64,000 nucleotides of DNA. Origin: Thuidium tamariscinum (lineage: Eukaryota; Streptophyta; Bryopsida; Hypnales; Thuidiaceae). Within the stretch, counting starts at the first letter, position 1; the number at the start of each line of letters is the position of its first letter. The stretch covers positions 16,554,001 to 16,618,000 of the forward strand of contig OX344753.2 in NCBI GenBank assembly GCA_947034885.2, written 5' to 3'. Shown here one piece after another: positions 16,520-64,000 of the stretch. Under the pieces are notes generated by a model, which was not told the origin of the DNA, did no database searches, and saw only the letters and a program-made list of their open reading frames with translations. Both the position numbers and the translations under genes were made by a program.

Positions 16520-17749
16520 TTATGGAGGACAAAGACTAAGACAGAGATTGCTTTCAAAAAGAGTACCTTTGTTTAAAACATTAGAAACCACTGGACACGT
16601 ATGCCACGTCCTGTTGGACAAATTGAACACTATGCAGGAGCAAAGGAAGATAGAATTTGCCAACCCAATGACAACTCCCCATGCATGGTTTAAGAAAGAC
16701 TGGATATGGACATTATTATGTGCTAACTGGACTATCATTTCCCTTCCCAACGTTGATAAATGTATGAACTCCCTTCTTGCAAGGATGAACTCAATAATCT
16801 CAATAGAGTTCAGTTGATCCATCTGGTTAGTACTCAGGAGCACACAAAATAAGCGGCCATCGCTTACTACCAGATGGGGACTAACATGATGATCATGATC
16901 ATAAGGGGCATCAATCCCAAGGTCAGAAACCACACATGTCACCTTATTGTAAGAAAGGAGCCTGGCATGCAACTCATCCTGATGAGAAAAGAGAGTGTAA
17001 AATTCATCCTTTAAGATGGCAGAAGCATAGCCCACCTTACACCATCCACTCAGAGCATTAAGGTGCCCTAGGTCCACGGCAGATATCCTCCAGCTTGCTG
17101 TCTTCGACTCGTAAATGTAAGCAACATTTGGCTGTCGGGCGTCTTCAGCAAGAACAATAAAAAAGATCTCATACTCCGTTGAATCCCTATTTGTGGACAT
17201 CGCAACCCATTCAGGTCTTTTCGACCATCCTGCAAAGTACAGAAGCTGCTTGACAGTTTGTAATACAAGATTGCACACAAGTAGTGCGTTGGCGTGCGTT
17301 TCCAGTTCAGAACAAGATCTGCACCCATCATTGATGTAATACGACAAACAAAACAGCCCTCCGTCAGCTACCAGAATGGTCCTCTGCGGAGAGCGCCATC
17401 CACACGTTCGAGGGCAACGCACAAGAATTCCCTTCTGCCTTATAAACTCGGCAAGGAAGTCACCGCTTAAATAGAAGAACCTCTTATTGGCCACATCCAG
17501 AACCTTCCAACCCCGGTCACTCCAATCCTCCCAGGCACCCCAATCCTTCCGGAGACTAATAAGAACGTATTCTTCTAGAGATGAGGCTCGAGCATGACGT
17601 GAGGCAAAGCCGGGGTGATTTATGAATCTGTTCCATTCCTTTGAGACCGCCCGAAACCGACACAAAGAGGCGAGTGGAAGAAACGTCACGACCACCTCAA
17701 GTAAATCCAAAGGAAGTTCTCTCCACACTCTCTCCATCCTGCTTGTCAT
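16520..17749 (-). CDS. F-box protein with beta-propeller-like C-terminal region (gene 1)
   Basis: An uninterrupted 409-residue frame on the minus strand. Residues about 10-50 are an F-box: LPLDLLEVVVTFLPLASL, then CRFRAVSKEWNRFI. F-box proteins of this plan use the F-box to bind a SKP1-like adaptor in an SCF ubiquitin ligase, while the C-terminal part selects the substrate. The remaining ~350 residues have kelch/FBA-like strands such as LLVCNLVLQTVKQL, YIYESKTASW and VFNLSNRTWHTCP. No substrate can be inferred. The start could be either of two nearby methionines (MTSRMERVW). It is one of three paralogues here and closest to gene 3. Relative to genes 2 and 3 it lacks the SHDPDF spelling after the F-box (NHPGF). 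No intron is needed, so it is probably a single-exon gene. Confidence 0.88.
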   Translation of the reverse strand: MTSRMERVWRELPLDLLEVVVTFLPLASLCRFRAVSKEWNRFINHPGFASRHARASSLEEYVLISLRKDWGAWEDWSDRGWKVLDVANKRFFYLSGDFLAEFIRQKGILVRCPRTCGWRSPQRTILVADGGLFCLSYYINDGCRSCSELETHANALLVCNLVLQTVKQLLYFAGWSKRPEWVAMSTNRDSTEYEIFFIVLAEDARQPNVAYIYESKTASWRISAVDLGHLNALSGWCKVGYASAILKDEFYTLFSHQDELHARLLSYNKVTCVVSDLGIDAPYDHDHHVSPHLVVSDGRLFCVLLSTNQMDQLNSIEIIEFILARREFIHLSTLGREMIVQLAHNNVHIQSFLNHAWGVVIGLANSIFLCSCIVFNLSNRTWHTCPVVSNVLNKGTLFESNLCLSLCPP

Positions 17750-18760
17750 GACGAGCCTCTGATGCTGAATCGCAATTCATGGTGGGCTTGCTCGTGCTTC
17801 AGAGTACGCTCCCTAGCGATTCCTTATGCTGCAACACAAGATAGCAAGTACTCAGATCATGTAGATCACACATTTGACAGGAACGGCTGACTATTTCTGA
17901 AATTTTCACGCAAGTACTTTTCTACATGCTCCCACGATCGCCAAAGAACAGGATTACTGCATTAGATCTCTTCAGCAATGCACGTCACGATTCGGTTATA
18001 GTCAAAATACTTGGGAGATTGGTAATACAAGTTACTGAATATTATAATACTGCTGGGCTAATACCTCATACAATACAAACCCCCACCCCTTTCAAAAATA
18101 TACCACAAACATCCAGCAATGATGCCAATCGATTGGAAACATGGGAGAGATGAGACACTCGCATATTTCTCAAATCGATCGGAAAACATGGGAAACATTA
18201 GAAATAGACGAGAGTATGTTAACGACAGAAAATCCTGCAGAAGGTAATACAGTTTGCATCCATGATTGCTGAACAACTTGCAGATTCCAACTACATATAG
18301 CGTGACACGAACGAAATTCGATCATTTTTTGAAGATGTGCTGAAGCGTCTGTAGGCAGGAACCAGGCGGATTAAGAGAATAACTGTACACAGACCTTCAA
18401 GCCTCGTTTTCTTCGTCCAACTCTCCACAGAAACCCTAACAAGTGCAGGTGTGTGGGTCTTGCTGGCAATGTACGATAATTAAGATGCAGCATGCATCGC
18501 TGGAAACTTCAGTCCACACCAATTTGAATTTCAAATTCGTACACTTCAAACTTGAATCCGCATACAACCTAATCCCTAATTGAAACCGCAAAAGCCATCA
18601 AGAAGCTCCACAAAGCCGATCGATCTGCTCACCCGTTGCTAAAGAGCTTCCCCAGTCGCACGAAGGAGAGCGGCTAGCGTCCTCAAATCATCGACGTATA
18701 TGACTGGAACCAGATTATTATGCAGTTGCAGATGAATTAGATAAATATAAACTTATATAT
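17750..18760. promoter_or_regulatory. conserved 5' flank of F-box gene 1
   Basis: About 1 kb upstream of the start codon is strongly conserved in all three units (compare 55034-56030 and 63482-64000) and less AT-rich than the rest of the unit. It probably holds the 5' UTR and promoter. A 75-codon frame on the opposite strand (17926-18153) persists in all copies but accumulates amino-acid changes, so it is not called a gene. Confidence 0.5.
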
Positions 18761-32556: not shown

Positions 32557-32566
32557 TATCAAGAAA

Positions 32567-32640
32567 GAGGAATGCTGGTATGTGAGCAGGGAGCGGCGAG
32601 CGGGGAGCAGGGAGCAGGAAAAAGTGAGCATGGAGCAAGG
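32567..32640. repeat. left terminal region with phased 7-mers
   Basis: Fifteen terminal bases (GAGGAATGCTGGTAT) are followed at 32582 by consecutive 7-mers: GTGAGCA, GGGAGCG, GCGAGCG, GGGAGCA, GGGAGCA, one degenerate GGAAAAA, GTGAGCA and TGGAGCA. They mirror the right end and are likely transposase-binding sites (inference). Confidence 0.88.
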
Positions 32641-33691
32641 ATTTTAGGAAAAAAGACCTACCTAATCCTATTACCGTGGAAAAGGGTACCTAAAACCGTG
32701 TAATTAGTTTGTTCCAAAAATATTAAATTTGAATTTTTTTCAATCCAATTCTAATCTAAAGCCATGGAATTTTGGAAGCTTAGATCTATAGCTATATGAT
32801 ATAAGCATTATGATCATGTAATTTCAAACATTTAAAGTTCTCTACAAGAGCAAAGAATAGAGATAAGAGAACCAAAAATGATTTATTAAAGTTTAATTTA
32901 TGAAATTTAAGAGACCCTATTACCGTATAATTTTCATAAAAATTTAATTTGTATTAAAACGGGCATGTAAAGCCGTGGATTGTTAAGGAAATTTAGATAC
33001 CTAATAAAATGATGGTTTCTAGTTTTAATAAAAATAGAAGGAAATCTATGACCATGGATTTTTGTCATTTAAGACATTAGATGTTTTTTGGGGCATTTAG
33101 AAGGCTAACATTGTTGAGAGATTATCATGCTAGATTTTACTATATTTTTAATTAATTATTAATTTAAAAAAATCAGTTTTTTGTTTCATAACTTTCTGAT
33201 TTTTTTTTTTTTTTTTTTTTTTTTTTCCTTCAAAAAATTTAGACCAGCAGTCGCTGGTTCATTGCACAGTGAACAGTTTTAGGGAAGAACCCTGAAATAG
33301 TCTCCTACGGAGCAAAAAAACATCTAATACTTATAATAGAAAGACCAAGTAGCTTAAAGAAATTGAATGAAAAACTATAATACTACAATACCACTCAAAA
33401 AAAGACATATATAGTTATGGCATAATATTGCAACCATTAAAGTTATAAGCAATTGTGAATCATTTAGAAACAAATCTTTTGTTGTTTAAATTCACACAAT
33501 GAGAAATTGAATACTCACCAAGATAAGAAGATACAATAAGTTTAAATATGTGGGTCACTTGGATATAGCATTCAACATTTAGAGCACATAATCAAATGCC
33601 TGTATAATATATATATGATAAAGCAAATGCCATAAAACTGGAGGGCAATTTAGAGCCACAATAGTGAAATACACTGAAAAATGAAAACCAC
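32641..33691. other. left subterminal non-coding DNA of the transposon
   Basis: AT-rich, with a T-run near 33199-33227 and several ACCGTGG/ACCATGG-like words. It lies downstream of the methyltransferase stop codon and presumably holds its 3' UTR. Confidence 0.5.
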
Positions 33692-34639
33692 TCAAAGACC
33701 ACCACTGTAGCTACAGTCACTAGAGGTTGAACCTTTAATCTCAAATTCCTCTCTTTGATCTGCCTCTATATCCAAGAACTCCTTTACCTTTGGATCATAT
33801 CGAAGCTTTTGTCGATTCACTATTGGAGATGGAGCATCAACATATGCTTGAGCAATCCTCTCTGCATAAACCGGGAGAATGAAATTGAAAGGCAGACTCT
33901 GCTCATTTGCATCTTGTACTTGCTCTACTACAGTGTCTCTGCAAGACAAGAAAAAAAGGTTAGTAAAATACAATGTAATTCAAATATTCTTATAAAATGA
34001 AAAATGGTGACTTAACAAATGAATCACAACTTACGCACAAGAGATGAATCGATTCCTCTTTGGCTTCTTTGTAGGTGGCTGATCAAGCGGTGGGGTAGTG
34101 GCTCTATCCTTGGTTGTAGAAATAGAGGCTGCAACAGGGGCAAACGGGGCAATCATAGCCTTGAAAATGAGAGGATCATCTTCTAATGCTAAGATGTGCC
34201 GTCCAGTCTCCAAACAAGCCTTGATGGATGAACCTGTTGGAAAACAAAAAATATATGAATAAATTATGAAAAATCAGCTCCAAAGAATGATGAATAAAAC
34301 TTAAAATTGTAGAAGAAAAAAAATACTTGTTGCAGCTTTGCAATCAAGGACAATATCTCCAGGCTTGCAAAATTGTAGGATGAGATCTCGCATAAAGGGT
34401 AAGTTCTTCTCACGTGGACCTCTCCATGGAATTTTCTCATTCATAGAAAGGCTTTCAATATCCGTAAGATTGAAGAGAGCATCATTTTTCTCTAAAGGCT
34501 CACCATCATAAGAAGAATCACGGTTTTCTTGGAATGAAAACCGTAAAGGAATCTCCCGCCGAATAAACAATTGAATCCAAAATCGAACAGACTGCAAACA
34601 TTGAAAAGTTGAATATTAGAAAGAACTGTATCTCAGAAA

Positions 34640-35110
34640 TTACAATATCAAGAGAGCTACAAAAATTTCAGAAATCACAATGTCAAGGGAACTACAAAAA
34701 TTTCAGAAATCACAATGTCAAATAAATCATTAAAACAAAGGACTTTGTAAGTCTATTTTAGGATAGACTTTCTATAACTTTCTACAAACTACTCACAAAC
34801 TAAAACTTACAATGTCAAAGAAAATTTCAGAAATTACAATGTCAAGGAAATCGCAGATATTACAATGTTAAGAAAATTACAAAAATTTCAGAAATCACAA
34901 TGTCAAATAAATCACAAAAATGAAGGACTTCAAAGTTAAGGGTAGAGTAGACTTTCTATAAATTCCTACAAACTAAAATGTACAATGTCAAAGAAATAAT
35001 AGAAATTACAATGTCAAGGGAATTACAAAAATTTCAGAAATCACATAAATTTCAATGTCAAGGGAATTACAGAAAATTTCAGAAATCACAATGTCAAAGA
35101 AGTTACATAA
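34640..35110. repeat. degenerate copies of the intronic repeat (intron 9)
   Basis: Repeats of AATTTCAGAAATCACAATGTCAA-like phrases (here split by AAG/AAATAAATC variants) fill most of the intron between exons 9 and 10. They are the same motif family as the satellite in intron 4. Confidence 0.75.
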
Positions 35111-37575
35111 ACTTTTTCATTTACCGTTAATGATGGATCCCGTGCAGATGCAAGATGTAGCTCATTGATTCCCCACCAATCTTTGGCCAACTTCATATCA
35201 TACTGGTCGGCCAACTCATCAACTTCTTTTAGCAATCTTCGGTCATCACAATGTATGAGTAGGAGGGCACCATCATCATGCAAATACATATCAGCCATCT
35301 CAAAGAGAGTCTCAACATAATTCTCTTTGCGCGCGTTCCACTCTGGAATTGAAGTTGAAAGACCTGGAACAGGTAGATTCTCTGGAATGTCTGCAATGAT
35401 CAAATCAAGTCCTGTATGCTTGTATTCTTTGCAAAAGTCGGATGTGACAGTACGATTGCGAGTAGCACTAATCTGCACATTTCATACATCTAAAGTTAAA
35501 ATTAAAACCTTCAAAGCAATGCCATAAAAGATGAAATGTTGGAATTAAGTTGAGAATACAATACCTTAGCTATAGTGTCATGCAACCTTATCCATCGAGG
35601 ATCAGGGCCAGTGGACTCTTGTAAACTATTCAAGAGAGTGATGAGAGAAGTGCACTCTACAAAGAAATGAAGAGAGTCTTTAGGCTCTATCATTGAAGAG
35701 TTGGCTGAAGGGAACATGAATCATTTCTTCTTTCGAATTCGATTACCAGTGGCATGAACAACATTCGATAAAGAAGAATCTGGAGCAGCAGGTGCAAGGC
35801 CATCATCATGGCCTTGGTTTGACATGGAGGTAGTCTCATGACTCTGTGAAGGCGCGGCTACAAGCTCATTTGCTTGAGACTTCTGTCTTTCGGCTTCTTC
35901 TTTCTCTGCCTTCTCTTTCTCTGCCTTCTCTTTCTCCGCCTTCTCTTTGGCCACCCTCTCCATCTCTTCCTTCTCCTTCTTTGTGAGCCGCTTTTTCTTT
36001 GGTGCCTTCTCTTGTGGTTGATTGACTTCTTCTGCATCGTCAGGGTCAAGAATAGCAAGTTGTCCACCATCAAAAGCTGTCCTCTTTGCAACCTCTGAGT
36101 CAGGGGTGTAATTTCGATGACAATCAAGGTACCACCCTCCCGCTTCCAAATGTGTAGCTTTGAACTTCTTCAATTGCTCAAATGTAAACATACAAAGATC
36201 AGAGTCTTTTTGCAACCAAGAAAGGAAAAAGGGTGGTACAGCTTCTGCTGAATTGCATTTTTACGAAGTAGAACCCGCATGAAGTACCTGAAGTCAAGGA
36301 GACAAATGTCATGATTGGCAAGTAATTCATGAATGAAAACAATAAGAACAAACAAAGCATTTTCATCAACTTTTAGAAGTAAAGGTAACAAATAGGAACC
36401 AAAAATAAGAAACAATAGAAACTACATAATAAAATATTAAAGCAAGTAGATAAGTACAATAGCATGATAGTACCTGTATACAATACGTCTCACTGCACTC
36501 TCAGCTCCAGGGAACTCTTTAAATATAGACTTCTTTGTATAGAGTTTCTGATCTTTGTTTCCAAAGAACGAGATAAATGCTTTGTCCCAAAGCAAAATGC
36601 GCCAACTCTCCATATAATCAGAGGGCTTTCGAACACCTTGTATGGTCCAATCTACGACAATGTTTTCATCTTTGCAAATGTTTGTAACCATCTTAACAAC
36701 CACCTCCTCCATCTATTAAAATGAAATGAAGAATGTTAAAAATACAATAAAATGAAATCATAATAAGTGCAAGAAAGAAATGATTTGCGGTCACAATACA
36801 ATACCTTAGCCCAAAAAGATGCTTTATTGATCCAAGAATCCCAAAAGAGGTCTTTATCCTTGGACCCTGGAAAGCGATAAGATTGTCGAACTGTCAAGGA
36901 TGCATTCCACCACCTTGACCACCGTGCCTTGTGTTTTGCTTCAATGTTAACGGTGGCAATTTTTTGAAGCTTTTCAATCGTCATTTCAGGATTTGGATAT
37001 TCACTGAAGTGTCTATCGATCTGAGCACATAAAAACATTTATATTAGATTGAAATGATGCAATGTATAGATAAATTCAGAGATTACAAGTTTAAATGGAA
37101 TACAAATGAACTCATACCTCTTTGAGAAAATCATTTTCGTTCTTTGGATTTGCCACCGCTAGGTATTTGTCAAAGTCTTTGGCATGAACAGCCTTGACAA
37201 ACTTGTCTGAGGTATTTTTCATTGCTTCCCAAATGCCTGGAGCAGTCCTCTCTTGGAGTGGTGTCCGCATCGTGTACTCTCGAGCTGCTTCATCGGCGGC
37301 CAATGCAATCTCCCGCTACAATTGAAAATTACAAAAATTACAATGTCAAAGGAAATTTCAGGAATTACAATGTGAAAGAAATCATAGAATTGACAATGTT
37401 CATAGAATAACAAAAATTTCAGAAATTACAATGTCAAAGACACTACAAAAATTACAATGTCACAAGAATTACAAAAGATTTCAGAAATCACAATGTCAAA
37501 GAAATCATATAAATAGAGGACTTCAAAATTTATTATAGAATAGACTTTCTATAAACTAAAACTTACAATGCCAAA

Positions 37576-38336
37576 GGAACTACAAAAATTTCAGAAATCA
37601 CACTATCAAGGGAACTACAACAATTTCAGAAATCACATTGTCAAGAAAACTACAAAAATCTTAGGAATCACATTGTCAAGGGAACTACAAAAATCTTAGG
37701 ATTCACATTGTCAAGGGAACTACAAAAATTTCAGAAACTACACTATCAAGGGAACTACAAAAATTTCAGAAATCACACTATCAAAGGAACTACGGAAATC
37801 TTAGGAATCACACTATCAAAGGAACTACAAAAATTTCAGAAATCACACTATCAAGGGAACTACAAAAATCTTAGGAATCACATTGTCAAGGGAACTACAA
37901 AAATCTTAGGAATCACACTGTCAAGGGAACTACAAAAATTTCAGAAATCACACTATCAAGGGAACTACAAAAATTTCAGAAATCACACTATCAAGGGAAC
38001 TACAAAAATTTCAGAAATCACACTATCAAGGGAACTACAGAAATCTTAGGAATCACACTATCAAGGGAACTACAAAAATTTCAAAAATCACACTATCAAG
38101 GGAACTACAAAAATTTCAGAAACCACACTATCAAGGGAACTACAAAAATTTCAGAAATCACACTATCAAAGGAACTACAGAAATTTCAGTAATCACACTA
38201 TCAAAGGAACTACAGAAATTTCAGAAATCACACTATCAAAGGAACTACAGAAATTTCAAAAATCACACTATCAAGGGAACTACAGAAATTTCAGAAATCA
38301 CACTATCAAGGGAACTACAGAAATTTCAGAAACCAC
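37576..38336. repeat. 35-bp tandem satellite, ~22 units, in intron 4 of the methyltransferase gene
   Basis: Units start GGAACTACAAAAATTTCAG and recur every 35 bp without interruption (37576, 37611, … 38276, 38311). Variants alternate TTTCAGAAA with CTTAGGAAT. Degenerate units extend on both sides to about 37320 and 38460. The array lies entirely between exon 4 (ends 38512) and exon 5 (starts 37315). There are no unique spacers, so it is not a CRISPR array. Confidence 0.93.
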
Positions 38337-40005
38337 AAATTGAAACTTATAATGTCAAAAGAAATTTCAGAAATTACAATGTCAAAAAAATCACAGAAAT
38401 TACAATGCTAAAGGATTGTCAAAGATATTACAATATCAAAAGAATGTCAAAGAAATTACAGAAATGACATATAAATGTTGTAAGAAAAACAAATTGGAAA
38501 TGTGATTGCACCTTATACAAAAAGGAGATGAAGACATTGACTGTCAAAGAAAACCAACTCGGTCTCATTGCCTTCACCTTCTCACAATATTGGTACTCTT
38601 CAGGAGATATAAGGTCCTTGAAATCAGCAAGAGGTAAAACTCCAAAATTTTGAATTCGCCGCAATCGAGCTGGAATTGTACTCTTCACATGATCATGCTC
38701 AGTAGACCTACACATTATACAATGCATTTGCATGAGAATGAAATCAAATTTCATAGCAATGAATTCATATTTAGATTCTTCACAAATAAATTTAAATAGA
38801 ATAAGAAACGTACCAGTTAATATCACTCATTGCATTTAGCAAGTTTGCCACTTGACCTTTTGGATCCAATATAATGCAATGAACTCGCCAATGCCAATCA
38901 AGTTCTGTAGGATGATAGTTGGTGATGTGTCGCATCCATGCCGAGACACGATGATTTCCATCCTACACATAAAACATCTTACCTCTCAATTGGGCAAGGT
39001 CATCATCAGCCATCAACTCTTTCTCAAACTCCTCATTCACATGTTGCCAATGAGGATTCCACCTTGCAATTTCTTCTTCAGTCACGTCCATAGTTTTTTC
39101 GAAATTGTTGTATGGTGATATATATAGAACCCGATCACCATCTCGATAGCCAGTCATAAACTCACTCTCCAATCTCTGAACATCCATTTCACCAACCGGT
39201 CGAACCTCGTCCATAACAATCATTCGACAAAGAGGTATCTCAAGGCGTGATCTAGAAACTGGTTGGATACGCAATGTGTTGATGAGTCCTGTAGTGTTCA
39301 CTTTAAGCTGTTTGCGGTGGAGTTGCTCACTCTCCAATACACTTGTTACATCAGCTGGACATTCACATCTTGGTTCATCATCTTCAAGATCAATAGATGC
39401 AACCTTCAAAAAAATGATAGATAAAATGGCATTAGAGAAGAGAGTGATTTACATTTAAAACTTGTTATTTTGAATAATTGTACATACAGAAAGTAATGGA
39501 AAGGACATGAAGTTGAGAACATGTAGAAATTTCATTTACCTCAACAATTGGAGGTGCAACTCTTCCCGTTTCTCCTGTAACAACTCTCTCACCATCATTG
39601 TTGTTCTCACCTTCTTCCTCCTCGACATATGTGATTTCAGTTTCTTCTTCTTCATTCATCTGATTAGTTGAAATCATTGAAGAAAACTTGACATAAGTCC
39701 TCTATTATTTATAAATGAAGATGAAAGGAAAATGAACTCATTCTTGATTCTTGTTTACAGCATCGTAGTATACAAATAAGACAACACAAATACAACAACA
39801 TTGACAACTGAATTCCTAAATAATCTCAAAGCTCTAAAAAATTTCCACAATGCATATCCAATTTCGTTTGAATTGAAGTAAACGGCTAAAATCAACTAAA
39901 ATCAACTAAAAACTCATTCTATTAGAAAACTAGAGAAACTCAAAGAAATCATGAAATGGCATCTCTTCTCAAAATTCAGCCTAAAGTAGTACAAGTTATG
40001 GACAG

Positions 40006-40563
40006 CCTCGTCAACGAGGACTATATGAGTTGAGTATAGTTCAAACCAAAACATTGGCATTGATCCAAAGAATGTGCAAATATTGTCATTCAAAATTTTT
40101 TTGTTAAGAACAGCCCAACAATCTTAGCATTTTTCAATTAGATTCGAAGTTGTTTTGAGTGTCCTCGTCAACGAGGACTCCTCGAAATAGTCGTGCGTAA
40201 TTCAACCTAACGATCTAAACAAAGAATGTATAATTTTAGGTTTTTTTGTCAATGAAGATTTCCCAAAAGGGCTGTAAGCAAACCAATGTTGATTAGGGTA
40301 GCTGCCGTTTTGGGTATCCTCGTCAACGAGGACTCCTCAAAACTGCAGGCCCCGCAATTGCTGCCCCCCCCGAAAATACACAAAACTTTGAACTAGAAAT
40401 GACAGAGAAAAAATTAAAAGAGAAAACAAACCTCGATGTCTGGCTGAGTGTCTTCTTGCGTTCCACGCGAAGCCACCGCCGAACGCTCTGCAAATTCTCC
40501 CTCTTCCATCTGCAGCAACAATCACCACAAATCGTACGCAAAAAAGATGCCTCGTCAACGAGC
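40006..40563. promoter_or_regulatory. four copies of palindrome CCTCGTCAACGAGG
   Basis: Copies at 40006-40019, 40163-40176, 40318-40331 and 40550-40563 (last base differs). The first three sit in intron 1 at spacings of about 156 bp within a diverged tandem repeat. The fourth is about 40 bp upstream of the ATG at 40509. CCTCGT and ACGAGG are perfect inverted halves around CA. A binding site for a dimeric regulator is plausible but unproven. Confidence 0.65.
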
Positions 40564-41225
40564 GATCTTCCTCTACGCCAAACCCTCAGCAACTTCGACG
40601 CACGATTGGACTGGTTTGCAATGCTGGCCTCGGGGAAGGGGAAAAAAAAAAAAAAAAAAAAAAAGAGTACAAAATTGGTAGATTTAGGTCAGCGCTTTAT
40701 TTTGAATAGCAAATGTAATTTTGAGTAATTTGGTTTGAAATTTTTTTCATACGTAGATTATAACCTTACAGTTCACTCCAAATTTTTTTAGAATTTTTAG
40801 ACTCACTACTGATTTTACAAAAATCCTCAAAGTTCACAAAAAAGTTTGCAGGCAAGATTTGCCTAAAAATCTTCCGATTCTGAAGATTTCAGACCAAGTT
40901 CCAATCTGCTGAAATCGTTTTTAGGCCATAAAACATTCAATAACCATCCAATTTTTATGTGCCATATACCGTTGGAATCGTCTTCTTAAAATACACAAGA
41001 AGGTCTTCCCTGTCAAATGCAGCTCTACCAAAAAAAAATTCATACTAATTCAACAAACAACCTAATCATTTTGGTATCTATTCTTCTATACTTTCAAGCA
41101 TCTTCTGACTTTGTTATGTAATGAACTAGTAAATAAGTACTTAACAAGTGTTCTTCTAAACAAATTCTCACTACATCTTATTTACAACATCAACTTCAAA
41201 TGATCAAATAATATGATATACTTAC

Positions 41226-41600
41226 CAAATCTTGTCTACTTTGGGCAAGTTCTTCGCTATCTTCGTCACTCTCGTCCTCGCTCTCGTCCTTACTCTGATC
41301 GTCTTCTTCGCCATGTATGTTGTCCTCATCTCTTTCAACCATAGATACTGGTTCTTCAATAATCTTATCAAGACATGAAATACCGTCACCAACTATGTCG
41401 GCCACTTCTTGGTCACCAAAATCAAGTGCTTTAGACGTCTCACTATAGCTATGCTTTCATCTACTTAAAATTTTGGCCCCTCTCATCTTAGCTCTTGATT
41501 TGGCCTTCGGAGTTGTGTAATATAGTTTGCGTCTTTTTCTCTTCTTTTTTATCAACCTACTTGCAATCTGAGACTTAAGGATCTTGATTTCTTCAAGCAT
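41226..41600 (-). pseudogene. exon coding a basic-then-acidic protein; possible 5' exon of the methyltransferase gene
   Basis: An ATG at 41600 opens MLEEIKILKSQIASRLIKKK, followed by RKRRK, a strong nuclear-localisation-like basic block. It runs 125 codons to a consensus donor (TTG|GTAAGT at 41226/41225). The second half is very acidic (KDESEDESDEDSEEL). One TGA interrupts it at 41457-41459. The exon ends in phase 0. The next good acceptor on this strand (TGCTGCAG at 40510-40517) sits exactly before the ATG at 40509, also phase 0. It may therefore be the true first exon of the ParB/methyltransferase gene rather than a separate gene. The first 47 codons are easily missed because the stop splits the frame. 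Confidence 0.55.
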
Positions 41601-42828
41601 CTAATCTACCACACATACATTCCGAAACAAGCATCACAATGATACCGTCTTTATCACCTCCAAATTATCTATCATTCAATCCTACTAGCTGTAGACATAG
41701 TTCTAACAAACATTGAGTCTAATTTAAATAATGTTTTTGGCTATTCAAAGCCTTCAAAAATTGACAAAGGTGCATTATTCTCATCTCTCACAAATCTACA
41801 ATCTTCTTTCACAACAAGAGTAAAAATCACCTACTAGATGCATAGCTACTGTAACACAAACTCAAAATGCTTTCAAGACCAAAGAAGTATTACAATGATG
41901 TCCTACAACTTTAATAAAGATGGTAAGCAAGATGTACTAACAAGAAAAACTTAAACTCTCTGGCAACGATAAATGACAATTGTATAAGTCTGAAGTTTAT
42001 TCAAATTTTGAAATCTGACGGATTTGTTATTCTAAATGTTATTTTTTGTATAAATACTCTATCAATCTTCTACTATAACGTAAACCTGCAGGTGGATTTG
42101 GCGCTCCCACTACTTAAATGTTTGTATTTCCTTTGATTCTTTGTTCCTGTTTCATACAAATGACGGCTACTTCTAATGTGGGCTACTTCTAATATAGGCC
42201 ACTTCAAACTAAAATCTTCACATATACTATATTTCATTTATTTTTTAATTCATAATTCATATTTATTATTAAATTAATTAATGTTAGACATGTTTATTTT
42301 CAAAATCGGATCATCACTAATCTAACTATGTTGACCACTTCAAACCAACATCTTAACATATACTATATTTCATTTATTTTTTAATTCATAATTCATAATC
42401 ATTATTAAATTAATTAACATGAGACATGTTTATTTTCATAATTAGATTTTTATTAATCTAATTAATTTATTCAAGTTTATACTATTATTAATAAATTTGG
42501 TACTATGCTTTATTGTCTACTATGTCAGTATATCAGTATGTCAGTATGTCACCATTAGGTGTTTTTAGTTTGCTTCTCTTTTCTAATGAGGTTCTTTTAA
42601 GGGATCAAGATTAATGTCACTTCTTGAACTTTTGTCAGAATTCATCATTGAGAAATTTTCAAACGATTTCCTAACTATTGCTAAAGCCGTTGTAAACTAC
42701 TTCATCATCATATTTGCTAACTACATATTTGTTTCCAGCACAATCTATTTCTTTTCAATTCATTTCTTCTGAGTGCAGTATGGACGTAAATTAGAATGGT
42801 ATCTTCATGAGACTTCAATCTTTAAGCA
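41601..42828. promoter_or_regulatory. divergent intergenic region between the two transposon genes
   Basis: About 1.2 kb, AT-rich, between the minus-strand exon at 41600 and the transposase ATG at 42829. It contains a tandem pair of about 135-bp units (about 42197-42470) sharing CATATACTATATTTCATTTA. It probably holds both promoters; no individual site is assigned. Confidence 0.55.
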
Positions 42829-43290
42829 ATGGTAGACTTTACAGAGATGGCTATTGTAAGGGCGAATAGTGAAGGGATTCCAATAACGTTTCTAGTAGGC
42901 AAAGATGGATTTGCTGTGGTTTCTGCGTTTCGATTAAGTTTTAGGTTTCAGTTGAACGAGGACTCACTTTATATTGATGAAGAGGTGTTCGATGATCATA
43001 GTGGAGACCTTACTCACACAATTGGTCAAGTCCCTGTTTCAGATGGTGCTGGTAGATTGTGGCATTTGAAGCCTGGTCAATTTAGGGTGTATGGATTGCG
43101 TGAATCCATTATGGTAACTTCTACAAGTGTTTTTACACCTCGTCAGTCCTCTACGTCCTCTCGTGAAACACCTTTAACAACACAAGTTAAATTAGAGCCT
43201 GGTTTGAATGATGTCACCATTCTAAGTGATGATTCTGATGACAATTCTCCCAAGCAACTGCAAAGCTCTAAGATTCGATGTCATGAGTCA

Positions 43291-43488
43291 ACTTTACCAA
43301 GTTCTAGTACTTTGCCCAGTTCTAGTATATTGCCAAGCTCTAGTATTTTGCCCAATTCTAGTATTTTGCCCAATTCTAGTACTTTGCCCAGCTCAAGTAC
43401 TTTACCCAGCTCGAGTACTTTACCCAGCTCAAGTACTTTACCCAGCTCAAGTATTTTGCCCAGCTCTAGTGCTTTGCCGAGTTCTTAT
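43291..43488 (+). repeat. 18-bp coding tandem repeat (TLPSSS), 11 units
   Basis: In-frame hexapeptides T/I/A-L-P-S/N-S-S in the transposase exon 1, from 43291 to 43488. Third-position differences between units show it is not brand new. It forms a flexible Ser/Pro linker between the SUMO-related motifs and the Cys-rich module. Confidence 0.9.
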
Positions 43489-45093
43489 GAGCCATTATTT
43501 GCCAATCCCTCTAGTAGCAACGAATCTATTACATCTGTCATTGATTGTTTAAGAGAATTGCGTACACTGAAGGGATGTAGAAATGTCTTGAAAAAAATTG
43601 ATTATGACACTATTACTATTCATAGAGTGAGCGTATTACCTCCAACTTTCAATGGAGATGTCATTTTTGAGTTTCCACCACTTATTACCTCCACTGCTCT
43701 ATCTCAAGCTAAGCAAATGAGTGGGATGGATAAGCGGTATGATGCGCATGTCTGGTCTAAAACTATTACAACAAATATAACAAATACCATGGGATTATCA
43801 TTCCGTACATCTTCATGTGTAGGACATCTTCAGTGCATCAATCCAGGCTGTGAGTTTCTTAGTCGTATTCATCGAACCAAGCCTGTTAATGAACTAGAAT
43901 GGGAAGGGTTCACACCATCACTATTTGAAGTAGGAAGTGCACATCCTCAAAGATCAACACTTGTTTGTAAAATATGCAAGCAACCTCCATCCTGTATTGC
44001 TCGATGTTCTACAAGGGTATATTATGTGTTTGGAAAACAGAACTTCTCTCGTGCATTTGTACATCTTGACATTCATCAACATCCTGTCAAAGATGGTGAA
44101 CTCAGAGACATCAAGGAGCGAACCCGTATTCTTATTGGTGAACAAATGGAGAGAACACCAGTTGCGACAAATTCTTCAATTGTGTTGGAGGCTACAAAAG
44201 AACTTGTGGGAAAATTATTGCTACGTCCAGATGGAGTTCCAGTGAAGACCCTCAACATTGATGAACTTCTTCCAGTTCTTGACAAGTGCAAATATTTCAG
44301 CTCTCCAAATATTCGAAATGAGGTAACTTCATTCAAATACTTAAGGAGGTTTGGAGTTATGGATAGCATTACAAAATTGAGGGGTACAAGCTCTTGGGCA
44401 TTTGTTCAAGAGAATAAATTTCCAGGTCAAGGATCGGATATGGATAAAGTTTTTGTCTTCAAAATGTCGGAAGTTGGACCCGGTAGTGGAGTAGACTTGG
44501 TCAAGCGAATGCAACCCAACGGTGACCTTCAGGATGCTTGGTTAATGTTTGATCATATTAAACGTGTTAAAGATTGGACTACCATGGCATGTCATGTCTA
44601 CGACTCCATGTATTGTCGTGTTATGACTATTGCCATCTGTGATATGCAATCTGAAGACTGTGCTGCTCAAATTGTATTTTAGAAAAACTTGAATTCGGTT
44701 CTTGCAAGACATGGTGTATCTCACCTTAAATTCAAGGGATTTATGGCTGATAGTGCCCAAACAAATTGGAATGCTGTGAGGACAATCTATGGATCAGGTG
44801 ACATTCATATTCCAATGGAAAACCAAGAAAGGACTTGTCTTTTCCATTGGACTCAATCAATGGAAAAGCATACAAAAGCTGATATTCGATCAGACTTACA
44901 AGATCAGCATCGTTTGCTATGCAAACAATACAAGAATGCTATTTCCTCTGAAGAATCAGAAACTCGATATCTTGCCATCGAAGCTTGGTGGTTATCATCT
45001 GGTGCTACGACAGAAGAAGGACTTCATCGATTGGAACTTTGGCTATCGTTTTGGCATTTCCGTTACCACCAATGGGGAGGATTTGAACAACTT

Positions 45094-45711
45094 GTAAGTA
45101 TCTATTCTTCATCTATTCTATTTCAAATATCTATTTGTTTAAATCTATTTATAGCAAAAAATTCAAAATTTAATTTTATAACCATTACTAATCATTTGGA
45201 CAATGTCAATTTGAAAATGTATGTATAGTATACATGATTTCACTACAATTCTTATAATTACTATAAATAGATCATCAAAGACAGTATGGGTTATTATTTA
45301 TTGCATTATTAATCAAAAAAATTATATTAAATTAGAGACTAATAATCCTTGTCAACAAAGATCATGAGATTTGAATCTTCAATCATTTTATTTTTGTAAC
45401 ACTGAAAGTAGACATAATTTAGCATGTCTTGCCACTTCATCAACGACAATGACACAGCTTAACCTCCTTTCCTAGTTTTTTGATAAAAAAATGACATGAA
45501 CTAAAAAAGAGGTCTGTTTTCTTTGTCTTTGATGATAGAAAGTTTATTGTCTTTTCTTGATTCATATTATAATTTCCTTCTTACTTTGATTACTAGTTAT
45601 ACTATCAATATTAATAGTAATAATGTTATACTTACAATACATTTATATTTTTTTCTAACAAAATTTTCATTTTTGATTTCATTGTCATTTCAAAATCTGA
45701 GTGAATCTGAG
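45094..45711 (+). other. intron of the transposase gene
   Basis: 618 bp, GTAAGT donor and CTGAG acceptor, AT-rich, with TTCTAAC near 45653-45659 as a candidate branch site. Both sides are phase 0. Confidence 0.8.
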
Positions 45712-47162
45712 CTCGCGGAAATGCCTTCTTGCAATTTAGCCGAAACTGTCCATAACAAGTGGCTTCAACAATCTGGAAATCGAGGAAACGATTTATACAT
45801 TGCCACTGTTGACGACTATGTAAGAGCCTTTATGCAAATGGTCAAGTATTATCAATATCTTAAAGGCAATCAAGCTGGAACAGGATCTGGAAAGGAAGAA
45901 TTGTTACTCCGAGTTGCTCAACGATCAGCGCAACGATCGGGGAATCCAAAGGTGCTCACTGAAGCTATGTCCAACATTCCAGAAGTGAAAGAATTTCTCA
46001 ATAGGGAGCCTTGTCTTGAAGGTGAAGAAGTATTTGGATCACAAAAACGCAAGCCAGATATGCCATTGGGCTGTGAATATGATTCATACCGCCCGGACAA
46101 AGTGAATTTTTCTCATCCACGCATTCAAATGAGGTCGAAAAGAGCCTCCACAGTCACTCAAAATTTGAATCCTATTATTGAAGATGTTATTCCAACTGCA
46201 GATACTGAGATGGAGGATCCGATGACAACTGAGGGCAATTTAAGAGAAGGTTTTACTTACAGAGTTCCTCATGTGTCAGCAATTCAAGAGAGCAACTGTG
46301 ATGAGTTTCAGTGGCACATTGCAAGGCTTCCTAAATCCTCAGCAAAGGCTTGCTTTGCCCTCCAAGCTATTTCGAAGAAGAAGTATACAGCAAGGATTGT
46401 CCAAAGCAATATTGCTACAGCAGCACCAACGTATACAGGAATGATGACCAATTATAAGAAAAATCGAAATGAGCAAATGCAATTTTTCTTTTGCAATGAC
46501 GACATTGAACGTTGTGTGAAGGGTACAAGTCAGAAGTGGGTGTTGTCAAGACCTAATGTCCCTGCCATATGGCCTGTCAAAATGGGTACCAATTTGTCAA
46601 AGCAAGAGATTTTGGCATTTGAAACTGCTGGCTTTCAGCTTCCACAACGTCAAGTTATTTCACCCCGAAGACTATTTGGTGGAGAAGCAGGTTTAGATTT
46701 GGTCTCTGCTTATCCTGTTCCATGTATACCAGATGAGCATCCAAAAATTCGGTCAGGGAAAACCATTCGTCGGAATCCAAAGGCGCCAACAGTAAAACAC
46801 GCGAACAATTGTGCATCTGCAATTACACTAAAGGCATGCATTTGTCGGGTAACAATGGTTCCTCACCCTGGATTTGGTTGCATTGTTTGCCTTGACTCTG
46901 GATTGGAGCCAAAAATTGAACAATATATGCTTACTATTTCATCATTTCCAGAGTGTTCATGTCCATACTTCAAGAAATGGCTACAAAGTCATTAGGCAAG
47001 CGAGGACAATGGGCAAATTGTAAGCATCTCTATTTTGTTTTTACAATCATTTGCAACCTTGAGTCAGCAATAGATGCCTTCATTCATGCCCCAAGTTTCA
47101 GTTTCAATGAAGTCAAGAAGATCCTTCTTAGTGGGATATTAAATCATTTAGCTCTAAGTTAG

Positions 47163-47801
47163 ATTTTTTATTGTAAAACAGTATCAACTTTTGTACCTTC
47201 TGTACTCATCAATGTATATGTAGTGAGACTAAAAGGGCCACTACTTCCATTTCACTTTCAGCATTGAGATTACTGTATAATTTTTGTTGTTTTCCTTATA
47301 CCTATATTTTGCATTATGGTTTATTATATTCCATCATTGATATCATGTATTTGTACCTTCATTCTCTTCTAACCATTGTGTTTTGATTTTAATTTTTTAG
47401 TTTATAATTCAAATTCTCTCATTTGTTTTTGAAACAAAATACACAATCATCAATTCTAAAAATGTCCACGGTAATGGGTCTATTTGAGATTTATTATATG
47501 ACACAAAAGCAATTCAATTCAACTCTCAACTTCTTTGGTTTTAAGACAATTTATTTCCACGATCATAGGCACTGTCGTAGTGAAGTTACAATTTTGAATG
47601 GTATATATTTTGATTTTTACCTTTTTCATCTGTTCTTTTCGTCCATTGTCTTCTATTTTTGCATCCAACTTCATCCATTTTTTCCATCTACTTTCATCTA
47701 TTTTTCATCTACTTTCATCTACTTTCATCTACTTTCATCCATTTTTTCCATCCACTTTCATCCATTTTCATGCAACTTTATTTTTTTTCATCCCAAATCA
47801 A
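47163..47801. other. right subterminal non-coding DNA of the transposon
   Basis: Contains the transposase 3' flank and a short TTCATCYA-rich minisatellite at about 47685-47775. No gene is supported. Confidence 0.5.
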
Positions 47802-47865
47802 TGCTCCCCGCTCACAACTTGCTGCTCACCGCTCACCGCTCATCGCTCACGTACTAGGGACGTTG
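47802..47865. repeat. right terminal region with phased 7-mers
   Basis: Read inward from 47865, 15 bases (CAACGTCCCTAGTAC) are followed by 7-mers GTGAGCG, ATGAGCG, GTGAGCG, GTGAGCA, a degenerate GCAAGTT, GTGAGCG and GGGAGCA. The 15-bp offset and the single degenerate unit followed by two good ones are mirrored at the left end. Confidence 0.88.
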
Positions 47866-53755: not shown

Positions 53756-55033
53756 TTATGGAGGACAAAGACTAAGACAGAGATTGCTTCCATAAAGAAT
53801 ACCCTCTTCTAAAACATTAGAAACCACTGGACACGTATGCCACGTCCTGTTGGACAAATTGAACACTATGCAGGAGCAAAGGAAGATAGAATTTGCCAAC
53901 CCAATGACAAATCTACGCATATGCCATGCATTTTTTAAGAAAGAGAGGACATGGACATTATTATGTGCTAACTGGACTATCATTTCCCTTCCCAACGTTG
54001 ATAAATGTATGTACTCCCTTCTTGCAAGGATGAACTCAATAATCTCAATAGAGTTCAGTTGCTCATGCCAATAGCCAATCCTCATGGTCACACAAAATAA
54101 GCGGCCATCGCTTACTACTAGATGGGGCAAAACATGAAGATCATGATTATCATAAGGGACATCAATCCCAAGGTCAGAAACCACACCTGTTACCTTATTG
54201 TAAGAAAGGAGCATGGCATGCAACCCATCATGGTGAGAAAAGAGAGTGTAAAATTCATCCTTTAAGATGGCAGAAGCATAGGGCACCTTACGCCATCCAC
54301 TCAGAGCATTAAGATGCCCTAGGACGGCAGCAGATGTCCTCCAGCTTGCTGTCTTTGACTTGTAAATATAAGCTGCAGCGTTTGGCTGTAGGGCGTCTTC
54401 AGCAAGAGCAATAAAAAAGATCTCATACTCCGTCGAATCCCTATCTGTGGACATCACAACCCATTCAGGTCTTTTCGACCATCCTGCAAAGTGCGGAAGC
54501 TGCTTGACAGTTTGTAATACAAGATTGCACACAAGCAGTGCGTTGGCGTGCGTTTCCAGTTCAGAACGAGATTTGCACCAACCCTCCGTGATGTCATACG
54601 ACAAACACAACAACCCTTCGTCAGTTGCCAGAATGGTCCTCTGGGGAAAGCGCCACCCCTCTGCAAGGTAACGCACAAGAATTACCTTCTGCCTTATAAA
54701 CTCGGCAAGGAAGTCACTGCTTAAATGGAAGAACCTCTTGTTGGCCACATCCAGAACCTCCCAACCCCGCTCACTCCAATCCTCCCGGTCACTCAGTTCA
54801 GCCCAAGCACCCCAAGCATGCCAGGCATCCCGGGCACTAATAAGAACGTACTCTTCTGGAGATGAGGCTCGAGCATGACGTGAGGCAAAGTCAGGGTCAT
54901 GACTTATGAATCTGTTCCATTCCTTTGAGACCGCCCGAAACCGACACAAAGAGGCGAGTGGAAGAAACGTCACGACCACCTCAAGTAAATCCAAAGGAAG
55001 TTCTCTCCACACTCTCTCCATCTTGCTTGTCAT
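53756..55033 (-). CDS. F-box protein with beta-propeller-like C-terminal region (gene 2)
   Basis: 425-residue uninterrupted minus-strand frame. The F-box at about 10-50 matches genes 1 and 3 (LPLDLLEVVVTFLPLASL, CRFRAVSKEWNRFI). It differs most from the other two. After EEYVLIS it has an extra Trp/Ala/Asp-rich stretch (AWHAWGAWAELSDREDW) that lengthens the segment by about 13 residues. Near the C-terminus it has KNAWHMRRF where the others have NHAWGV. The C-terminal strands (LLVCNLVLQTVKQL, YIYKSKTASW, FNLSNRTWHTCP) suggest a substrate-binding beta structure. The expected role is an SCF ubiquitin-ligase receptor; the substrate is unknown. Its open frame after long divergence suggests it is still functional. 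Confidence 0.88.
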   Translation of the reverse strand: MTSKMERVWRELPLDLLEVVVTFLPLASLCRFRAVSKEWNRFISHDPDFASRHARASSPEEYVLISARDAWHAWGAWAELSDREDWSERGWEVLDVANKRFFHLSSDFLAEFIRQKVILVRYLAEGWRFPQRTILATDEGLLCLSYDITEGWCKSRSELETHANALLVCNLVLQTVKQLPHFAGWSKRPEWVVMSTDRDSTEYEIFFIALAEDALQPNAAAYIYKSKTASWRTSAAVLGHLNALSGWRKVPYASAILKDEFYTLFSHHDGLHAMLLSYNKVTGVVSDLGIDVPYDNHDLHVLPHLVVSDGRLFCVTMRIGYWHEQLNSIEIIEFILARREYIHLSTLGREMIVQLAHNNVHVLSFLKNAWHMRRFVIGLANSIFLCSCIVFNLSNRTWHTCPVVSNVLEEGILYGSNLCLSLCPP

Positions 55034-56030
55034 GACGGGCCTCTGATGTTGAATCGCAATTCACGGTGGGCTTGCTCGTACTTCAGAATACGCTCCCTAG
55101 CGATTCCTTATGCTGCAACACAAGATAGCAAGTACTCAGATCATGTAGATCACACATTTGACAGGAACGGCTGACTATTTCTGAAATTTTCACGCAAGTA
55201 CTTTTCTACATGCTCCCACGATCGCCACAGAACAGGATTACTGCATTAGATCTCTTTAGCAATGCACGTCACGATTCGGTTATATTCAAAATACTTGGGA
55301 GATTGGTAATACAAGTTATTGAATATTATAATACTGCTGGGCTAACACCTCATACAATACAAATCCCCACCCCTTTCAAAAATATACCACAAACATCCAG
55401 CAATGATGCCAATCGATCGGAAACATGGGAGAGATGAGACACTCGCATATTTCTCAAATCGATCGGAAAACATGGGAAACATCAGAAATAGACGAGAGTA
55501 TGTTAACGACAACAAATCCCGCAGAAAGTGATACAGTTTGCATCAATGATTGCTGAACAACTTGCAGATTCCAACTACATATAGCGTGACACGAACGAAA
55601 TTCGATCATTTTTTGAAGATGTGCTGAAGCGTCTGTAGGCAGGAACCAGGCGGATTAAGAGAATAACTGTACACAGACCTTCAAACCTCGTTTTCTTCGT
55701 CCAACTCCCCACAGAAACCCTAACAAGTGCAGGTGTGTGGGTCTTGCTGGCAATGTACGATAATTAAGATGCAGCATGCATCGCTGGAAACTTCAGTCCA
55801 CACCAATTTGAATTTCAAATTCGTACACTTCAAACTTGAATCCGCACACAACCTAATCCCTAATTGAAACCGCAAAAGCCATCAAGAAGCTCCACAAAGC
55901 CGATCGATCTGCTCACCCGTTGCTAAAGAGCTTCCCCAGTCGCACGAAGAAGAGCGGCTAGCGTCCTCAAATCATCGAGGACATATATGACTGGAACTAG
56001 ATTATTATGCAGTTGCAGATGGATCGACAA
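55034..56030. promoter_or_regulatory. conserved 5' flank of F-box gene 2
   Basis: Counterpart of 17750-18760. Strong conservation over about 1 kb upstream of the start suggests shared promoter and 5' UTR. Confidence 0.5.
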
Positions 56031-62248: not shown

Positions 62249-63481
62249 TTATGGAGGACAAAGACTAAGACAGAGATTGCTTTCAAAAAGAGTACCTTTG
62301 TTTAAAACATTAGAAACCACTGGACACGTATGCCACGTCCTGTTGGACAAATTGAACACTATGCAGGAGCAAAGGAAGATAGAATTTGCCAACCCAATGA
62401 CAACTCCCCATGCATGGTTTAAGAAAGACTGGATATGGACATTATTATGTGCTAACTGGACTATCATTTCCCTTCCCAACGTTGATAAATGTATGTACTC
62501 CCTTCTTGCAAGGATGAACTCAATAATCTCAATAGACTTCAGTTGATGCATATAGTCAATCCTCATGATCACACAAAATAAGCGGCCATCGCTTACTACC
62601 AGATGGGGACTAACATCATCATCATGATCATAAGGGACATCAATCCCAAGGTCAGAAACCACACCTGTCACCTTATTGTAAGAAAGGAGCCTGGCATAGA
62701 ACTCATCCTGATGAGAAAAGAGAGTGTAAAATTCATCCTTTAGGATGGCAGAAGCATAGCCCACCTTACGCCATCCACTCAGAGCATTAAGATGCCCTAG
62801 GACGGCAGCAGATGTCCTCCAGCTTGCTGTCTTTGACTCGTAAATGTAAGCAATGTTTGGCTGTCGGGCGTCTTCAGCAAGAGCAATAAAAAAGATCTCA
62901 TACTCCGTCGAATCCCTATTTGTGGACATCGCAACCCATTCAGGTCTTCTCGACCATCCTACAAAGTGCGGAAGCTGCTTGACAGTTTTTAATACAGGAT
63001 TGCACACAAGTAGTGCGTTGGCGTGCGTTTCTAGTTCAGAACAAGATCTGCACCCATCGTTGATGTAATACGACAAACAAAACAGCCCTCCGTCAGCTGC
63101 CAGAATGGTCCTCTGCGGAGAGCGCCGTCCACACGTTCGAGGGCAACGCACAAGAATTCCCTTCTGCCTTATAAACTCGGCAAGGAAGTCACCGCTTAAA
63201 TAAAAGAACCTCTTGTTGGCCACATCCAGAACCTTCCAACCCCGGTCACTCCAATCCTCCCAGGCACCCCAATCCTTCCGGAGACTAATAAGAACGTATT
63301 CTTCTAGAGATGAGGCTCGAGCATGACGTGAGGCAAAGTCAGGGTCATGACTTATGAATCTGTTCCATTCCTTTGAGACCGCCCGAAACCGACACAAAGA
63401 GGCGAGTGGAAGAAACGTCACGACCACCTCAAGTAAATCCAAAGGAAGTTCTCTCCACACTCTCTCCATCCTGCTTGTCAT
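62249..63481 (-). CDS. F-box protein with beta-propeller-like C-terminal region (gene 3)
   Basis: 410-residue uninterrupted minus-strand frame, nearly identical to gene 1 (same LRKDWGAWEDWSDRGW spacing) but with SHDPDF after the F-box as in gene 2. F-box at about 10-50; C-terminal strands LLVCNPVLKTVKQL, YIYESKTASW and FNLSNRTWHTCP. The expected role is the substrate receptor of an SCF ubiquitin ligase in nucleus or cytosol; the target is unknown. Differences from gene 1 are scattered single residues, which fits a recent duplication of the A/C segment. Confidence 0.88.
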   Translation of the reverse strand: MTSRMERVWRELPLDLLEVVVTFLPLASLCRFRAVSKEWNRFISHDPDFASRHARASSLEEYVLISLRKDWGAWEDWSDRGWKVLDVANKRFFYLSGDFLAEFIRQKGILVRCPRTCGRRSPQRTILAADGGLFCLSYYINDGCRSCSELETHANALLVCNPVLKTVKQLPHFVGWSRRPEWVAMSTNRDSTEYEIFFIALAEDARQPNIAYIYESKTASWRTSAAVLGHLNALSGWRKVGYASAILKDEFYTLFSHQDEFYARLLSYNKVTGVVSDLGIDVPYDHDDDVSPHLVVSDGRLFCVIMRIDYMHQLKSIEIIEFILARREYIHLSTLGREMIVQLAHNNVHIQSFLNHAWGVVIGLANSIFLCSCIVFNLSNRTWHTCPVVSNVLNKGTLFESNLCLSLCPP

Positions 63482-64000
63482 GACGAGCCTCTGATGCTGA
63501 ATCGCAATTCACGGTGGGCTTGCTCGTGCTTCAGAATACGCTCCCTAGCGATTCCTTATGCTGCAACACAAGATAGCAAGTACTCAGATCATGTAGATCA
63601 CACATTTGACAGGAACGGCTGACTATTTCTGAAATTTTCACGCAAGTACTTTTCTACATGCTCCCACGATCGCCACAGAACAGGATTACTGCATTAGATC
63701 TCTTTAGCAATGCACGTCACGATTCGGTTATATTCAAAATACTTGGGAGATTGGTAATACAAGTTACTGAATATTATAATACTGCTGGGCTAACACCTCA
63801 TACAATACAAACCCCCACCCCTTTCAAAAATATACCACAAACATCCAGCAATGATGCCAATCGATCGGAAACATGGGAGAGATGAGACACTCGCATATTT
63901 CTCAAATCGATCGGAAAACATGGGAAACATCAGAAATAGACGAGAGTATGTTAACGACAACAAATCCCGCAGAAAGTGATACAGTTTGCATCAATGATTG
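63482..64000. promoter_or_regulatory. conserved 5' flank of F-box gene 3 (cut by window end)
   Basis: Counterpart of 17750-18266 and 55034-55550; continues beyond the window. Confidence 0.5.

Follow-up and report, generated by a model that had tools for sequence, protein, structure and literature searches.

A widespread two-gene transposon family in the moss Thuidium tamariscinum encodes an accessory protein with a methyltransferase fold and an altered catalytic motif

The window analysed here is a stretch of 64,000 nucleotides from Thuidium tamariscinum (assembly GCA_947034885.2, contig OX344753.2, positions 16,554,001 to 16,618,000 of the forward strand); unless stated otherwise, coordinates are positions in this window. 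It contains a DNA transposon of 15,299 bp (32567-47865) with two divergent genes, an accessory gene on the minus strand (40509-33692) and a transposase gene on the plus strand (from about 42829) (Table 1). The element is a member of a real and widespread two-gene transposon family, in whose accessory protein a methyltransferase fold is combined with a changed catalytic motif. The genome searched comprises 363 Mb on 19 contigs. Six sister copies (cA-cF), defined as the other copies of accessory exon 9 with 99-100% protein identity, were compared with the window, taking 30 kb around each. Colinearity with the window extends in all six from 32560-32567 to 47836-47865, and outside the element the matches between sisters and window are a few scattered repeats at other relative places. 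Reading by eye revealed a direct repeat flanking six of the seven copies, 10 bp long in five of them including the window copy and 12 bp in cA.

The first-pass annotation, made from the letters of the window alone, had proposed a 12-exon gene at 33692..40509, and this model was borne out. The spliced gene has GT-AG exon borders and in-frame joins except at three lesions, and it encodes a protein of about 1,138 amino acids. Every exon block was recovered in all six sisters. The first count gave 13 blocks, but 12 exons is the correct number because blocks 8 and 9 are read as a single exon in the sisters. A chance exon model was rejected, since the exons recur in the six sisters and in diverged copies. 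The RMIVMDEVRP…DGNHRVSAW pattern reported in the same annotation is present and lies in exon 3. Between both genes an acidic open stretch (41199-41456, minus strand) was noticed, possibly a further accessory exon or a separate small gene.

Table 1. Features of the transposon and its two genes in the window.
Feature	Positions	Strand	Remarks
Left target-site duplication, TATCAAGAAA	32557..32566	.	10 bp, read and checked in window
Element left end, imperfect terminal inverted repeat	32567..32606	+	26/40 positions match right end
Accessory exon 12	33692..33938	-	terminates at stop codon
Accessory exon 11	34035..34233	-	SSSIKACLETGRHILALEDD: remaining motif I and acidic residue after it
Accessory exon 10	34327..34591	-	motif I position DCKAAT at its end
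Shorter related tandem repeats	34633..35090	.	intron between exons 9 and 10
Accessory exon 9, first part of methyltransferase fold	35125..35472	-	motif IV position DIPENLPV at 35391-35368
Accessory exon 8, Lys/Glu-rich stretch	35565..36287	-	frame slip and in-frame stop in window copy
Accessory exon 7	36474..36712	-	rebuilt from sequence and sisters
Accessory exon 6	36805..37020	-	rebuilt from sequence and sisters
Accessory exon 5	37118..37315	-	rebuilt from sequence and sisters
35-bp tandem array, 21.8 copies	37576..38337	.	intron between exons 4 and 5
Accessory exon 4	38512..38707	-	rebuilt from sequence and sisters
Accessory exon 3, N-terminal domain, DGNHR at 38962-38948	38814..39403	-	stop directly before DGNHR in window copy
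Accessory exon 2	39540..39659	-	rebuilt from sequence and sisters
Accessory exon 1	40432..40509	-	rebuilt from sequence and sisters
Transposase, first long exon	42829..45093	+	one in-frame stop in window copy
Transposase, later coding part, borders approximate	45700..47163	+	stop interrupts window copy
Element right end, imperfect terminal inverted repeat	47826..47865	-	pairs with left end
Right target-site duplication, TATCAAGAAA	47866..47875	.	10 bp, checked in window

Both genes recur together in the same genome. For exon 9, exon 3 and a transposase segment of 175 amino acids, 150 matches each were scored among 549, 603 and 718 first-look candidates, respectively. A divergently oriented transposase lies at a distance of 7.5-14.0 kb from at least 62 of the 150 scored exon-9 matches, and among the close copies (>=82% identity) 29 of 34 show this arrangement; a control in which the transposases were shifted by 0.3 to 1.7 Mb gave 1, 1, 0 and 0 pairs. 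In the diverged copies L027-L030, which are about 36-39% identical over the aligned protein, the whole exon order is kept in all four, and of 14 additional diverged copies 12 have exon 3 on the expected strand and at the expected location. For exon 3 the median ratio of nonsynonymous to synonymous substitution rates (dN/dS) was 0.11, calculated from 33 of 253 pairs, and for exon 9 it was 0.21, calculated from 96 of 703 pairs; pairs outside dS 0.1-1.2 were dropped, and the pairs are not independent. The exon-3 rows were 20 of the 150 scored matches, selected as open, and for exon 9 38 of 40 sampled copies were used, two being left out. These values indicate that the accessory gene is under constraint.

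The first-pass annotation had read exons 9-11 as a methyltransferase, and the profile search that it put forward as a check indeed places these exons inside the methyltransferases. PF01555 matches window exons 8-12 (E=1.6e-6, 28.7 bits against a cut-off of 26.7) and was found in five of five members at E<=10, with a best value of 3.7e-7, the sole score displayed being that of the first member. A PDB search with a five-member profile returned DpnA (1.8e-5) and CcrMI (5.6e-5, nearly full length), and a phmmer search of the PDB with the methyltransferase part alone gave chance matches plus DpnA at 0.76. In an hhalign comparison with seven phage ParB-methylase fusions, restricted to their methylase half, 192 columns were aligned (92.9%, E 3.8e-7; reversed-profile control 0.17%), and DIPENLPV was paired with DPPYNVNV. 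DIPENLPV, at the motif IV position, precedes DIVLDCKAATSSSIKAC, at the motif I position, and together with the hhalign result this upholds the claimed beta-class order with motif IV before motif I. A manually composed methyltransferase consensus, searched against phages, matched 237 records; the 30 that were listed comprise 23 named as methylases, 3 hypothetical proteins and 4 without annotation. One of the matches with high coverage (H3, Javan244) is a ParB-methyltransferase fusion, and the record and gene name of another (H10) are identical to those of a ParB match. The assignment of exons 9-11 to a beta-class N6/N4 methyltransferase fold is thus supported by the profile comparisons, as a statement about the fold and not about activity.

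The catalytic motif that such a fold would normally carry was not found. Motif IV was inspected in 45 rows (40 of the 150 scored copies, picked for diversity, the window and four others; near-identical copies were omitted), and PP[YFW] or DPPY occurred in none of them, so that the catalytic form [DNS]PP[YFW] is absent from this sample. Position 1 is D in 44 of 45 rows, position 2 is variable (M 28, C 8, I 4, V 3, Y 2), position 3 is P in 36 and position 4 is acidic in 43 (E 36, D 7) and K in 2; position 5 is G (34) or N (11) and position 6 is L throughout. The usual form is therefore an acidic D-x-P-[E/D]-[G/N]-L, and the six sisters read DIPENLPV or DIPENLPI. Motif I is altered as well: in five aligned sequences D-C-[KT]-A-[SA] replaces the usual F-x-G-x-G surroundings, and an S-adenosylmethionine-binding motif of the FxGxG type was not found in these five, in which the motif I aspartate and the later glutamate are retained. 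The residues lost from motifs IV and I are catalytic in known enzymes and are needed for amino-methylation. Since motif IV has been replaced in a conserved manner and has not decayed, the pattern suggests that the accessory protein has changed in function.

Alternatively, the accessory protein might still be enzymatically active as a methyltransferase, with D-x-P-E as an unusual form of motif IV, possibly acting on another substrate and marking the DNA or RNA of the element. Such an enzyme would explain why the fold is retained, why the altered motif IV is as strongly conserved as an active site would be and why the five aligned sequences all preserve the motif I region together with the acidic residue that follows. 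It would have to work without the aromatic residue and usually also without the first proline of [DNS]PP[YFW], which are gone in the 45 sampled copies, and with a motif I that has lost its usual glycines, and we regard it as unlikely.

The N-terminal part of the protein had been likened to ParB, a claim of which the conserved motif and some weak matches stood, whereas no match to PF02195 and, by profile, no ParB chain in the PDB came to support it. GNHR is found in all 12 rows of a diverse exon-3 alignment (7 of 12 newly found exon-3 loci or like; the others were near-duplicate or split, and L062 was left out). In a 25-row alignment DGNHR occurs 21 times and DENHR, NENHR, DGNYR and NGNHR once each, so that 23 of the 25 rows retain both G and R. 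The ParB-CTPase fold has a P motif of the form GxxR, according to the parts of PMC12704722 used here. DGNHR fits this motif after a beta strand, which is a short motif and not proof of the fold. In profile searches 10 of the 25 exon-3 members matched DUF1015 at E<=10 (best 4.3e-4, below the cut-off), and the stretches displayed cover the DGNHR motif. The ParB-like partition protein family phrog_1033 gave weak matches of 0.054 and 0.022, DUF6551 0.13 and DndB 0.18. Unrelated families scored equally well, namely transcription factor E (5.4e-4, 3 of 25), KMP11 (0.015) and eL24 (0.027), and reversed sequences gave weak matches to STING_TM (0.14) and phrog_30896 (0.062) and to none of the ParB-like families.

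PF02195 itself had no match across the whole genome, while its control was found in 10 of 14 genomes, and ParB chains were not among the matches of the PDB profile searches with exon 3. An hhalign comparison of exon 3 with an 18-row phage ParB profile gave 0.25-0.4%, at a score of 12.3-12.7 that lies within those of 60 column shuffles (mean 12.1, maximum 22.95). In a leave-one-out run on the same profile 17 of 18 rows reached 99.3-100%, and phage P1 ParB, the only remote positive control, received 0.25%, showing that this comparison detects near relatives and misses remote ParB. In-silico removal of an insertion of about 36 amino acids from exon 3 did not raise the ParB signal, and tblastn of the exon-3 consensus against phages gave a single irrelevant match. 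A ParB fold of exon 3 is possible, going by the motif and the weak matches.

Phage fusions of ParB with N6/N4 methyltransferases have been described (PMC12704722, section 7). The first-pass annotation had suggested that a prokaryotic module was domesticated here, and a eukaryotic transposon might have acquired a fusion of this type from a phage or bacterium. The methylase part of such fusions (PF02195 + PF01555; for example in Streptococcus phage Javan244) aligns with the accessory methyltransferase half over 192 columns and in the same motif order, the Javan244 match being itself such a fusion; the domain order would agree, DGNHR fits GxxR as given in the consulted part of PMC12704722, and weak matches to DUF1015, phrog_1033 and DndB lie at the motif. 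However, PF02195 is absent from the genome, the exon-3 alignment stays within shuffles and unrelated families score equally. The seven phage fusions used are 404-501 amino acids long and thus far shorter than the accessory protein, and they carry DPPY in seven of seven cases where the accessory protein has D-x-P-E. They are also phage-borne and have a ParB half, whereas the accessory protein is found in a eukaryotic transposon and its ParB half is only possible. Pattern scans of viral contigs (two) and of prokaryotic genome contigs (one) did not find a close relative. Searches with the full read-through protein, which were flooded by the Lys/Glu-rich stretch, and with a five-sequence alignment, each with about 8,000 candidates scored in mostly prokaryotic and viral collections, gave none at E<=0.001, and homologues beyond the T. 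tamariscinum genome did not come up in these collections. In one Wolbachia phage record a ParB-methylase was not annotated, and two hypothetical proteins had no Pfam match. We consider this origin a less likely alternative. A bacterial-type amino-methyltransferase in a eukaryote has a precedent in the N4-cytosine methyltransferase of bdelloid rotifers; that enzyme is reported to make N4-methylcytosine, in contrast to the transposon-borne accessory protein with its changed catalytic motif (PMC8885841, in the parts used here).

The first-pass annotation had placed the gene inside a Mutator-like element. That it lies in a transposon was confirmed, and the 10-bp duplication and a SWIM-like CxC...CxH motif, read by eye in the later transposase part of a sister copy, point in the same direction. 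The transposase has an open frame of 800 amino acids at its first exon in a sister copy. A Pfam search with the joined transposase of a sister copy, minus its low-complexity stretch, gave no families at E<=10 and hence no profile match to the MULE transposase domain or the SWIM finger, so that the term Mutator-like rests on the duplication length and on the motif read by eye. According to the parts of PMC6446971 used here, plant Mutator elements duplicate 8-11 bp of target sequence and are listed with SWIM fingers and with additional antisense open reading frames, and the present element resembles them in its duplication, which is within this range, and in the SWIM-like motif. It is plausible on these features that the element is Mutator-like. 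The words methyltransferase, ParB and moss do not occur in the main text of PMC6446971.

The introns of the accessory gene contain tandem repeats, and the repeat-bearing introns vary in length among copies (986-1820 bp between exons 4 and 5, 533-1269 bp between exons 9 and 10). This is reminiscent of the VANDAL elements of Arabidopsis, whose VANC protein removes DNA methylation and binds motifs that have multiplied as tandem repeats, introns included (PMC5735166, in the parts used here). Both systems combine a transposase with an extra, faster-evolving gene and have intronic tandem repeats; in our family, lineages with about 37-48% identity in exon 9 have about 60-64% identity in the transposase segment. 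In contrast to the accessory protein, VANC carries DUF1985/DUF287, and a methyltransferase fold is not mentioned for VANC in the sections of PMC5735166 on which this comparison draws. Neither DUF1985 nor DUF287 was among the Pfam matches of the accessory protein, of which exons 1 and 2 and the Lys/Glu-rich stretch were scanned incompletely.

The best explanation overall, which we favour tentatively and with slightly less than even confidence, is a probably Mutator-like family of about 15 kb with a fixed accessory protein, whose probably non-catalytic methyltransferase fold would help the element. The protein consists of an N-terminal DGNHR domain, a long middle without assigned fold and a C-terminal beta-class fold with an acidic motif IV. 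Most likely it would no longer methylate DNA; the old fold, perhaps with a nucleotide-binding N-terminal domain, might instead bind the DNA of the element itself and, in the way that VANC acts for VANDAL elements, help it to move or to evade silencing. As related copies are common in the genome and under constraint, the accessory protein probably serves the transposon in some way that differs from ordinary DNA methylation. Of this picture, the ends of the element, the layout with two genes and their repeated association, the methyltransferase fold, its changed motif and the sequence constraint are observed, and the loss of catalysis, the DNA binding and the help in transposition or against silencing are inferred. 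In a more far-reaching version, a phage-type ParB-methyltransferase fusion would have become a nucleotide-switched DNA clamp, no longer catalytic, that would load onto element DNA, for example at the intron repeats, and block host silencing as a convergent counterpart of VANC; we consider this quite improbable.

Several observations speak against a fixed, helpful, non-catalytic accessory protein. For copy cE a target-site duplication was not found when its ends were read by eye. The 35-bp array was not seen in the four diverged copies L027-L030, and since arrays are missing there, the parallel to VANC targets is to be taken as a lead only. Furthermore, for 88 of the 150 exon-9 matches a divergently placed transposase was not found among the 150 scored of 718 candidates; six of these 88 have a transposase within 25 kb in another layout, and the limited scoring of transposase candidates may explain part of the 88. 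Compared with non-repetitive introns, exon divergence is lower in four of the six young sisters, but equal in one (1.86% each) and higher in another (2.19 vs 1.74%). The methyltransferase could also still be active despite its unusual motif.

Finally, the accessory gene of the window copy is broken by two in-frame stops and one frame slip, and the window copy was therefore rejected as a working gene. One stop is located directly before DGNHR, the frame slip early in exon 8 and the other stop late in exon 8. The stop before DGNHR is absent from five of the six sisters and shared by cB, and all six are open at both places in exon 8; stops elsewhere were found within exons 1-11 in cA, cC, cE and cF and in exon 12 in cD and cF. 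Stops in the window copy and in several sisters would be expected if the gene were a functionless passenger, that is, a host gene or fragment captured by one transposon lineage, and Mutator-like elements do capture host sequence according to the parts of PMC6446971 used here. A passenger would hardly account for a layout kept in lineages that are about 36-39% identical, for exon 3 being in place in most of the further diverged copies or for the low dN/dS, and we think it very unlikely.

Few cases are known in which a transposon brings along an anti-silencing or helper protein of its own. Within this class of elements, an accessory gene that is widespread, constrained and based on a bacterial-type DNA methyltransferase fold, with its catalytic motif rewritten, would represent cargo of a new kind; no report of such a gene came up in literature searches, in which subscription papers were mostly not covered. 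The gene also makes it possible to test directly whether methyltransferase folds are reused by transposons for DNA binding or as decoys.

Some further features were observed in the window and the genome. Three very similar long open reading frames on the minus strand of the window (16520-17776, 53756-55060 and 62249-63508) resemble those of F-box proteins. Contig C11 (17.5 Mb, 4.8% of the genome) contains, by counts made by eye, 26 of the 150 scored exon-9 matches and 30 of the 150 scored transposase matches and is perhaps a repeat-rich or sex chromosome. On contig C6, at about 24.97-25.64 Mb, exon-9 matches are spaced at about 232 kb and about 192 kb, as if a large segment had been tandemly duplicated.

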